Positions 5,234 through 60,418 of a stretch of DNA of 64,000 nt are shown here, piece after piece; position 1 is the stretch's first letter; the number at the start of each line of letters is the position of its first letter. A model generated the notes under the pieces. It saw only the letters and a program-made list of their open reading frames with translations. It searched no databases and had not been told where the DNA came from. A program made the translations under genes and the position numbers. The stretch comes from an uncultured Actinomycetes bacterium (GTDB lineage: Bacteria > Actinomycetota > CADDZG01 > WHSQ01), in NCBI GenBank assembly GCA_937863385.1, contig CALMBW010000020.1, forward strand, positions 434,001 through 498,000. The letters are read 5' to 3'.

Positions 5234-6400
5234 TTGCGTGTCGGTGCTCTCTCGCTTGAGAACTTCAGGAACTACGAGTTGCAGAAGGTGGAACTACGCC
5301 CAGGCCTGAATCTGATCTTGGGGCGCAACGCTCAAGGGAAGACGAATCTTCTCGAAGCGGTTTACCGGTTGAGTGGGCTTGCGTCTCCGCGAGGTCCTGA
5401 TTCCCTGCTCGTGCGTGAGGGGGCGGAGACAGCACTGATCCACGCCGACGTTACCCGGGGTTCGCGAACGGTCCACGTCGATATGGAGCTGCGGGGGGGC
5501 CGCGCTGCTCGCGCTCTGATCAATCGCAAGGCGGTGCCCTCCGCCAAGGCCCTCGGCGAGCTGGCGGTCAGTGTCTTCTTCGGGCCCGACGAACTGTCGC
5601 TGGTCAAGGGGTCGCCCGACGGCCGTCGGCGGTTCTTGGACGATCTCGTCGTGAAGCTTCGCCCGGCTCAGGTAAGCATCCGTCGCGATTTCGAACGCGC
5701 GCTCAAGCAGCGGAACGCGCTCTTGCGAGGGATGGCGCGGGGGACGCAATCGGATCAAGGATCGCTGGAGGTTTGGGATGAGACCTTCTGCAGTGCTGCG
5801 GCGGCCCTCGGGGCCGCCCGGTTGCGTGCTCTTGCGGCGCTCATCCCCTTCGCTTCCCGTCGCTATCGGGAGATCGCCGGGGGTGGTGAGCTTGACCTGA
5901 CCTATGTCAGTAGTTGGTGCCTTCCCGATGCCGCAGCTGCCGCGCTGTCCGATCCTGATGAGATCGACCCCGTCCAACTGGCTGCTCTGTTGGCCGACCG
6001 GATCTCGCAGGTGCGAAGGGGTGAGCTCGAACGCGGTATGACCTTGGCGGGGCCTCAACGCGATGATGTCAACGTGGGGCTCGACTCTCCTGGCAGCGCG
6101 TTCGGCATGCTCGACGCGCGCAACTTCGCGTCACAAGGCGACCAACGTTCAACCGCACTGGCACTGAAGATCGGCGAACACGACCTCCTCAGCGGAGCTT
6201 TGGACGACGCTCCTATCCTCTTACTGGACGACGTTTTCTCCGAACTAGATCCTCAGCGGCGAAGGTGGCTGCGCGACGCAGTGCGGGGGATCGGGCAAAC
6301 CCTGCTCTCCTCGGCCGAGGTGGACTCGTACCAGAGCCTGGAAGCGGAGGCGGTTTTCGAGGTCTCGCAAGGCATGGCTCGCTTGTTGGAGGCAGGGTGA
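5234..6400 (+). CDS. recF: DNA replication and repair protein RecF
   Basis: About 388 residues from TTG at 5234, where the conserved beginning RVGALSLENFRNYELQ lies. The frame is open back to a TTG at 5171 that would add 21 residues; neither start has a good ribosome site. RecF is an SMC-like ATPase that helps load RecA at gaps. Walker A is GRNAQGKTNLLEA, with Ala where many RecFs have Gly, and Walker B with the D-loop is ILLLDDVFSELDPQRR. The stop overlaps the next start by one base (TGATG). Confidence 0.93.
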   Translation: MRVGALSLENFRNYELQKVELRPGLNLILGRNAQGKTNLLEAVYRLSGLASPRGPDSLLVREGAETALIHADVTRGSRTVHVDMELRGGRAARALINRKAVPSAKALGELAVSVFFGPDELSLVKGSPDGRRRFLDDLVVKLRPAQVSIRRDFERALKQRNALLRGMARGTQSDQGSLEVWDETFCSAAAALGAARLRALAALIPFASRRYREIAGGGELDLTYVSSWCLPDAAAAALSDPDEIDPVQLAALLADRISQVRRGELERGMTLAGPQRDDVNVGLDSPGSAFGMLDARNFASQGDQRSTALALKIGEHDLLSGALDDAPILLLDDVFSELDPQRRRWLRDAVRGIGQTLLSSAEVDSYQSLEAEAVFEVSQGMARLLEAG

Positions 6401-6843
6401 TGAGTGACCCCATCAAGATCAAGGACCTGCTCGGTACTGTCGGGGAGAAGTTGGGTGTGCGTTCGGCGGCGAAGACCGGTGCGATCTGGCAGCACTGGGA
6501 AGAGATCGTCGGCCCAGCCATCGCTGGACACGCCGAGCCAACCTCACTGCGCGAGGGAGTTCTGCGGGTTCGCACGGACTCGCCTACGTGGGCCACTGAG
6601 ATCACTTACCTTGCCCGCGAGATCGTGCGCAAGGCTAACGAAGTAGCCGGCGAGGCTCTTGTCGGTGAGTTGAAGGTATGGACCTCACCCGCCGAGGTGA
6701 CGCGCTCGCGCCAGGCGCCTGCCCGCACCTCGGCCGACGAACGTCCTGCCGGGCCTCCCCACACGGACCCCGTAGAGGCGCTGGAAGCGGCGCGGGCCGC
6801 ATGGGCCAGGAGGCATTCAGAGGGAGGCAAAGATGGTCTGTAA
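6400..6843 (+). CDS. DUF721 protein, DciA-like helicase-loading factor
   Basis: 147 residues. The DUF721 core spans about residues 5-95 (KDLLGTVGEKLGV, then IWQHWEEIVGPAIAGHAEP and LREGVLRVRTDSPTWATEI). In other bacteria this family (DciA) loads or operates the replicative helicase DnaB; the assignment here is by family and by position between recF and gyrB. The last 50 residues are Pro/Ala/Arg-rich and look disordered. The ATG overlaps the recF stop, so the two are coupled. Confidence 0.85.
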   Translation: MSDPIKIKDLLGTVGEKLGVRSAAKTGAIWQHWEEIVGPAIAGHAEPTSLREGVLRVRTDSPTWATEITYLAREIVRKANEVAGEALVGELKVWTSPAEVTRSRQAPARTSADERPAGPPHTDPVEALEAARAAWARRHSEGGKDGL

Positions 6844-58404: not shown

Positions 58405-59649
58405 CTATTCCTCGCAGTCGGTGTGGGTGTCCTCAGCGTCTTGGGCGCAGCGGTCGGTGCCCTTCCCGCCGCGGAGATCGTCGATGCCGTGGTTGCCGTA
58501 GAGCACGTCGTTTCCTGCCATTCCGTACAGCACGTCGTCTCCGGCATGTCCGAGGAGCGCGTTATCACCGGCAGCCCCGATCAGTACATCGTTGCAGTCC
58601 GTGCCGCCCAACCGATTGATGCGCTCGAAAGTGATGTCGATCTCACCTTCCTGAAGCCGTCCTTCACGGAGATCGATCGTCAGGCCCTGTTGGTCGTTCT
58701 CGAGAAGATCACTGCACCGGCCCCAGTAGGCCCAGTAGCTGAGCATGTCCGACCCGGGCCCCCCGTTGATGCGGTCGCGACCTCCTCCACCCAAGATGTG
58801 ATCGTCACCCTTGCCGGCTCGCACGAGATCGTTCCCGGGCGTATATGCGAGGCCGATGCGGTCGTCGCCAGCTCCGCCTACTAGAAGGTCGTCCCAGCTG
58901 TCTTCTTCGTATGATTCGAAGTCGTCCAGTCTGTCGTTGCCACCGTAGCCGTAGATCCTGTCGCTGCCGGTCCCACCGCTCAGACTGTCTTTCATCGAGG
59001 AACCAAGCAATAGGTCATCGCCGTGCCCGCCGATCACACTGTGGATCCCTTCGAAGGTGTCGTGTCCCTGGCCTCGCGCCCATCCCTCGCTGAGATCCAC
59101 CGTCATGTCTGTGTGGGAGAACTGATAGCTGAGGGTCACCCAGCAGCATCCGGAGCTGGGTTTCATCACGTGATCGTTCCCTCGCCCCTCCCAGATGGTG
59201 GCGCTGGAGGCCGGCTTGTACAGATCGTCGCCACTGCCTCCCTTCAGCCGATACCCACCCTTGAGCACGTCATCGCCCGGTCCTCCCGAGATCGGGTCGC
59301 CGCTAGAGGAGGTAAGGAAGTCGGCACCCTCTTCGCCGAAGAGCCGGTCCCACCCACCGCTTCCCCCTTTGATCCGATCATTGCCCTCGCCACCCAACAG
59401 CTGGTCGTCTCCTCGGCCGCCACAGATGCTGTCGTTGCCACCCTTGCCGTCGGCGACATCGTGGCCGTCTCCGAGCAGGATGACGTCATCTCCCGCAGTG
59501 CCTTCGATCTGGTCGTCGTCATGGGTCCCATAGATGGTGGGCTCCAGTCCGAAGCACAGCCCCTGCGGCTGGCCGCCTAACTGTGCCGCCACGGGAGCTG
59601 TTGCTGCCATGAGGCAGACGGTAGCGACTCCAACTAGTTCCTTTCTCAT
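58405..59649 (-). CDS. Secreted RTX-type calcium-binding repeat protein
   Basis: 414 residues with a signal peptide (LVGVATVCLMAATAPVAA). Nearly all the rest consists of glycine/aspartate nonapeptide repeats of the form GGxGxDxLx, e.g. GGEGNDRIKGG, GGTGSDRIYGYGGNDRL and GHAGDDVLYGMAGNDVLYG, which fold into a calcium-filled beta-roll outside the cell. There is no catalytic domain; it may be a surface or matrix protein. No dedicated type I exporter is nearby, and the N-terminal signal suggests Sec export. Confidence 0.88.
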   Translation of the reverse strand: MRKELVGVATVCLMAATAPVAAQLGGQPQGLCFGLEPTIYGTHDDDQIEGTAGDDVILLGDGHDVADGKGGNDSICGGRGDDQLLGGEGNDRIKGGSGGWDRLFGEEGADFLTSSSGDPISGGPGDDVLKGGYRLKGGSGDDLYKPASSATIWEGRGNDHVMKPSSGCCWVTLSYQFSHTDMTVDLSEGWARGQGHDTFEGIHSVIGGHGDDLLLGSSMKDSLSGGTGSDRIYGYGGNDRLDDFESYEEDSWDDLLVGGAGDDRIGLAYTPGNDLVRAGKGDDHILGGGGRDRINGGPGSDMLSYWAYWGRCSDLLENDQQGLTIDLREGRLQEGEIDITFERINRLGGTDCNDVLIGAAGDNALLGHAGDDVLYGMAGNDVLYGNHGIDDLRGGKGTDRCAQDAEDTHTDCEE

Positions 59650-59731: not shown

Positions 59732-60418
59732 TCATCCGGTTGGTGTTCGCAGGCGCCAGAAATCTCCGGTCAACCCGATCCCGGAGAACAGTGCCTCTGC
59801 TTCTTCTGGGGTACGGCGGCGCCAGCCCGGCGACATGCGGTCGGCGTACCACGCATGAGCCAGTTCCCATTGCTGCTCGAGCGTCATGGTCGCCCCGAAA
59901 CCCATGCCTCGCTTCTCGCACCAACGTTCAGCGTGCTCCTCCGACCGGAAGGCAAGCATGTTTGCTCAGGTGAAGCCGATGTCATCCCACCAGCGGGCTG
60001 CAGGGATCGCGAAATGAACCATCCCCTCTCCCGATACCAGATGATCGTCCTCGACCTTCACTTGCAGTGGCTCACGGCAATCGGGGCACCATGTACTTAC
60101 CGATCCAGTGCCGCCCAACATGGCCACGATCCCCAGCGCGTCCCAGATGCAGTTTCCGTAGAGCCTTTTCTCGGAAGTCTCGGCAACGAAGGGCGTAGGC
60201 ACCGCAGAGAGCGGGTTCGCCATCCAGATGTAAGGGGTTCCGGGCGCTAAGACGATGGTGTGGTTGTCATGCAGGCGCCGGAGAGAAGCTTCCACAGACG
60301 CCTGGTCTGTATCGACCATCTCGCAGAGTTCGAGCGGAACGGGTGGGCGACCTCGGTCCACGAAGAACCGGTAGATCGCAACCCGAACCGCGGCATCGTT
60401 GGCGTCTGTAGAACTCAT
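59732..60418 (-). CDS. MerB-like organomercurial-lyase-family protein, candidate selenoprotein (UGA at codon 151)
   Basis: 228 residues if the in-frame TGA at 59968-59966 is read as selenocysteine. The N-terminal part is a winged-helix-like fold (VRVAIYRFFVDRGRPP...LRRLHDNHTIV). The lyase core has YGNCIWDALG (Cys90, Asp93), matching MerB Cys96 and Asp99, and CPDC. The TGA stands 61 residues after Cys90, where MerB has Cys159 (63 residues after Cys96), between WWDDIGFT and ANMLAFRSEEHAERW. The frame continues 75 codons with family-typical sequence to the normal length. No ribosome site precedes the ATG at 59959. A nonsense mutation or sequencing error is the alternative. The substrate may be mercury or another organometal. 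Confidence 0.75.
59934..59954 (-). promoter_or_regulatory. Candidate bacterial SECIS element in the MerB-like gene
   Basis: In the mRNA just after the UGA, UGCCUUCC pairs with GGAGG-A-GCA (eight pairs, one U-G, one bulged A) around the loop GGUC. The loop begins 19 nt after the UGA. In E. coli fdhF, GGUC also lies in the apical loop, 18 nt after the UGA, which is the part bound by SelB. The hairpin lies entirely within the coding frame. Confidence 0.65.

Follow-up and report, generated by a model that had tools for sequence, protein, structure and literature searches.

Two questions are raised by this locus: whether a TGA codon inside a MerB-like gene is read as selenocysteine (Sec), and what the encoded protein would do. 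In the window, by which we mean the whole 64,000-nucleotide stretch of DNA that was analysed, the gene occupies positions 59732..60418 of the minus strand. Its frame starts with ATG, contains one internal TGA at codon 151 (59966..59968) and ends at a TGA at codon 229 (59732..59734), so that the product has 228 residues. A winged-helix N-terminus leads into the MerB domain, which is followed by a conserved C-terminal segment that ends in ...GLTGDFWRL. When read across the TGA, residues 70–191 (59846..60211) match the Pfam MerB domain (PF03243) with 103 bits against a gathering score of 27, confirming the preliminary description of a single frame broken by one TGA with family-like protein on both sides. 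That description had also held that the downstream part has no ribosome site. This was accurate only in part, as the frame contains ATGs beyond the TGA, of which that at residue 172 is preceded by a weak GAGG; a separate downstream gene is nevertheless implausible because the sequence is conserved in the family. A MerB search of the whole genome identified one MerB-type copy, spanning one TGA.

Profile alignment to solved MerB structures bore out the proposed placement of the active-site residues. Cys90 (60149..60151) and Asp93 (60140..60142) occupy the columns of MerB Cys96 and Asp99, respectively, and codon 151 falls on MerB Cys159, not Cys160. This register is fixed by the aligned PDB chain 3f2g, which is a C160S mutant and reads “FCS” at this point. 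The window protein therefore has a Sec codon where MerB has Cys159, and the family alignments show no variation at Cys90, Asp93 or position 151. The AlphaFold2 model of the protein (40 sequences) reached a pLDDT of 95.5 and a pTM of 0.92, and with this model as the query the only structure matches at E < 0.001 were MerB2 and MerB entries. We regard homology to MerB as practically certain, and from this homology Sec151, Cys90 and Asp93 would make up one site. The protein scored below the NCBIfam cut-offs for MerB, with 47.6 bits against 193 for the equivalog model NF009710 and 33 against 200 for the exception model NF033555. No model of NCBIfam release 20 claims it, the scores for MerB, the MerB exception and SaoL all being under their cut-offs.

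Public genomes, sampled at one per species, were scanned and yielded 184 relatives, of which 80 were retained. The Sec column is occupied by TGA in 76 of these and by TAG in three, whereas the remaining copy is decayed and unreadable at this point. The family spans at least seven named phyla (Actinomycetota, Chloroflexota, Acidobacteriota, Gemmatimonadota, Calditrichota, Planctomycetota and Vulcanimicrobiota) together with a KSB1 bacterium, as named in the MAGs, and the hosts of the Sec-type genes are soil and water bacteria. A 58% identical fragment at the end of an IMG/VR contig (L231:3001-3207) also carries TGA at the column. An alternation of Cys and Sec at this position, which the preliminary description had proposed to look for, was found: Cys occurs in two family members (L018 and L019), in the Sphingomonas and Paraburkholderia relatives and in MerB itself.

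The genes required for selenocysteine insertion are also in place. The source genome, which is 99.8% complete, encodes selA, selB, selD and a tRNA-Sec with the anticodon TCA; all four of the genes whose absence would have counted against Sec (selA, selB, selC and selD) were thus located. The formate dehydrogenase alpha subunit (L223) and SelD (L040) of the same genome have no in-frame TGA, and therefore the presence of Sec machinery is not accounted for by these two common selenoproteins. Across the family, tRNA-Sec was identified in 36 of 39 member genomes. The three genomes with no match comprise one that has selA (G062), one that is 73% complete (G256) and one whose family member has Cys at the column (G035).

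A SECIS-like hairpin follows the Sec codon within the coding region, beginning 15 nt past the T of this codon (59936..59953 in the window copy). Its consensus over 94 distinct sequences is CUCUUCC-GGUC-GGAAGAG, and the apical loop GGUC is present in 89 of the 94. These sequences were compared with synonymous recodings of the same peptides (500 trials). The full set of seven pairs is present in 65% of the natural sequences and in 9% after recoding (largest value 21%), with none of the 500 trials reaching 65%. Compensatory changes were observed at all seven stem pairs, those at pair 19/28 coming only from one frameshifted row (L140). The features expected of a bacterial SECIS element, namely a downstream hairpin with a G in the apical loop, are clear in the family and weaker in the window copy, which is among the weaker members: five of the seven family pairs form, and z is -1.1 when this copy is taken alone. 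Codon 151 is the single place in the window where the combined pattern of Sec codon and hairpin matches, and the true stop at codon 229 shows no match to it. The hairpin is absent from the Cys-type relatives L018, L019, L023 and L030, and Rfam returned no family matches in the gene region.

In an acidobacterial group, the stem has changed from CGG-TCG to TGG-TCA, which converts Arg to Trp and the C-G pair to U-A. The substitution (FRS to FWS) lies in the SECIS-coding segment of five loci (L077, L078, L080, L082 and L088), and the base pair is kept in each. At these loci, keeping the RNA structure seems to have outweighed keeping the amino acid.

The three TAG codons belong to two Blastococcus genomes and one Geodermatophilus genome (L101, L109 and L123, at about 6001-6660). 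Each of these genomes has an Rfam tRNA-Sec match above the cut-off with the anticodon CTA, located about 50–110 bases from selA; ARAGORN labels this tRNA as tRNA-Pyl, a call made from the anticodon alone. In both Blastococcus copies TGA serves as the normal stop of the same gene in which TAG stands at the Sec column. Geodermatophilaceae are known to encode Sec by UAG in formate dehydrogenase, a UGSC protein and AhpC (PMC5330540, citing Mukai et al, 2016). Because the Sec codon shifts together with the anticodon of its tRNA, mutation or error is excluded, and on these comparative grounds the co-switch is the strongest single evidence for Sec. As codon and anticodon switch together, and do so in culturable strains (Blastococcus saxobsidens and Geodermatophilus pulveris), these bacteria amount to a natural experiment on Sec decoding of unusual clarity.

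Two explanations of codon 151 would dispense with selenocysteine. The TGA could be a nonsense mutation or a sequencing error, leaving a pseudogene or two genes. The family does include decayed copies: L027/L067 carry a premature TAG and a frameshift, G002 has a frameshift, and a copy on a Rubrobacter plasmid is also decayed. However, the same codon stands at the same column in 76 independent contigs and TAG stands there in three, so that neither chance nor sequencing error accounts for it. TAG moreover takes its place precisely where tRNA-Sec reads UAG, the hairpin covaries, and family-like protein extends on both sides of the TGA. This explanation is refuted for the family and is very improbable for the window copy. 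The codon could also be read as a standard amino acid such as Trp through a changed code or a suppressor, for which only the open frame speaks. Against this, the gene itself stops at a UGA (codon 229), and the genome has both tRNA-Sec and the sel genes. MerB and the Cys-type relatives carry Cys at this column, and Geodermatophilaceae pair TAG with tRNA-Sec(CUA); we consider such a reading barely conceivable. The suggestion that UGA is decoded as selenocysteine is thus strongly supported by the sel genes, the conservation of the codon, the TAG/tRNA switch and the covarying hairpin, and from this comparative evidence, which is nearly as strong as sequence data can offer, we are highly confident that Sec is inserted at UGA-151 by SelB, guided by the GGUC-loop hairpin just after the codon.

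A quick tree, in which the double-Sec clade described below and some MerB-like rows sit on long branches, separated the Sec clade from Cys-containing MerB-like proteins of the same phylum (SH-aLRT 97). The Cys forms L018 and L019 were placed inside the Sec clade, with moderate support for the local grouping (82), and this position suggests that Sec reverted to Cys. Plasmid-borne relatives from Sphingomonas and Paraburkholderia (L232:5944-6627 and L233:6001-6654) share the C-terminal segment with the Sec family; in these proteins both the Sec column and the Asp99 position are occupied by Cys. Because of the latter substitution, the wider family may not consist entirely of lyases. The decayed copy on the Rubrobacter radiotolerans plasmid (L234:5923-6192) is annotated in RefSeq as a merB of 90 residues that ends at the Sec codon, and its decay lies behind this codon.

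Three genomes (G009, G010 and G330) encode a protein of about 510 residues whose gene has TGA in the Cys96 column as well as in the Cys159 column (GLUGMEA and FNUSRMN). The corresponding genes are located at L216:2733-4283 (+), L217:4038-5588 (+) and on the minus strand of L218, and their products are 71–82% alike. Glu replaces Asp99 in this clade, and the hairpin after the second TGA retains the family form. Behind the MerB domain lies an AAA+ ATPase domain (PF00004), which scored 28.5 and 23 bits in the two proteins scanned against a cut-off of 21.2.

No conserved operon partners were identified among the family loci, and no mer genes were found next to the gene at these loci or at the window locus. 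The big clusters of neighbours were rejected as partners because they overlap the gene in other frames; the remaining clusters are generic or occur in a single lineage. A Pfam scan of the four neighbouring genes in the window identified an RTX-repeat protein, a 3-demethylubiquinone methyltransferase-like protein and a trypsin-like protein. The first of these adjoins the gene (58405-59649, minus strand) and has six stretches of RTX calcium-binding repeats, with no visible link to the MerB-like gene. At four Chloroflexota loci (L102, L105, L110 and L113), the gene lies between apparent tsf and pyrH genes, in a core-gene cluster.

Selenolate is a better soft-metal ligand and a better nucleophile than thiolate, and this would be a reason for the exchange of Cys for Sec. 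According to the alignment, Sec151 replaces MerB Cys159 beside Cys90 (Cys96) and Asp93 (Asp99). If the chemistry follows that of MerB, a soft metal with its organic group would be gripped by Cys and Sec together, and Asp would donate a proton to the carbon; the released metal would then be held on the Cys/Sec pair until cell thiols take it off. The substrate would be methylmercury or another organometal, and the enzyme would act as a stand-alone chromosomal protein rather than as part of a mer operon. Our preferred reading, which we hold with moderate confidence, is thus a genuine MerB-fold selenoprotein whose Sec, Cys and Asp residues cleave carbon–metal bonds, likely in methylmercury or another organometal, as a stand-alone enzyme. 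Cleavage of a carbon–metal bond, judged from the conserved residues, is itself somewhat more probable than the opposite. Mercury as the natural substrate is a more tentative proposal that we put slightly below even; it is the active site that carries this proposal, because there are neither mer genes nor conserved neighbours and the score is 47.6 bits against the equivalog cut-off of 193.

The main competitor of this lyase reading is a selenoprotein that cleaves no organometal and instead, for example, binds a soft metal tightly or buffers it, or acts on a small molecule by redox or reductase chemistry. It would fit the solitary gene with no mer neighbours, the score far under the MerB equivalog cut-off, the Cys in place of Asp99 in the proteobacterial relatives and the conserved C-terminal segment beyond the Pfam MerB model. 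On the other side, no member of the Sec clade departs from the Cys96 and Asp99 equivalents, a constancy that favours the acid-assisted mechanism of MerB, and MerB2 and MerB are the only significant structural matches. We therefore rate the competitor as the less probable of the two, but as a serious candidate. The preliminary description had also raised possible membership of SaoL, a MerB-like organometallic lyase containing selenium (PMC13188914), whose sao operon is mentioned in PMC10418091. The window protein could then be a divergent SaoL within the proposed selenocysteine-assisted organometal system, and the SaoL model NF040728 does match it weakly. This match, however, reaches 31.1 bits against a curated cut-off of 140 and is below the MerB score, and the residue before Sec151 is Thr (TU), so the CU motif of SaoL is absent. 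The Pfam scan detected no sao-like genes, ABC transporter included, among the four neighbouring genes. In addition, none of 400 genomes drawn from Chloroflexota reached the SaoL cut-off, yet the MerB-like Sec family is common in this phylum. The protein was accordingly not assigned to SaoL, and a divergent SaoL is very unlikely.

If the lyase reading is correct, a metal-binding and probably non-redox role would be added to the known uses of selenocysteine. Standard annotation would end Sec-type MerB-like genes at the Sec codon, and surveys of mer genes probably miss the family. A 2021 MerB survey of 80,925 genomes is based on strictly conserved Cys96, Asp99 and Cys159 (PMC8261052), and proteins cut at the Sec codon would therefore drop out. 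The Sec-type family may thus contribute unseen to the degradation of methylmercury in phyla with few recorded MerB proteins. A bolder possibility, which we advance as speculative, is that bacteria of many phyla use a large uncurated family of selenoenzymes, independent of any mer operon, to detoxify organomercury or other organometals, and that the double-Sec AAA+ branch of this family is an ATP-driven organometal machine. We know of no parallel to such a machine.

Reviews from 2022 and 2026 each include one MerB-like selenoprotein, called SaoL in the later review. MerB is absent from the main text of the GOS 2008, ISME 2016 and deep-Sep papers, and an earlier mention of the family in the primary SaoL paper or in a 2025 paper on selenoprotein neighbourhoods is possible. 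SaoL (NF040728; PMC13188914) and the window protein are both MerB-like and contain selenocysteine. They differ in that the SaoL model has 159 positions with a CU motif, whereas the window protein has 228 residues and TU, with no sao operon seen in the four neighbouring genes. With the UAG selenoproteins of Geodermatophilaceae (PMC5330540), the TAG members share UAG-encoded Sec and tRNA-Sec(CUA); MerB-like members are not among the proteins named there. Compared with MerB and MerB2 (PDB 1s6l, 3f0o and 5c17; PF03243), the window protein has in common the fold, the equivalents of Cys96 and Asp99 and the winged-helix N-terminus. It differs from them in standing outside a mer operon and in having Sec for Cys159, a SECIS element in its gene and an added conserved C-terminal segment.
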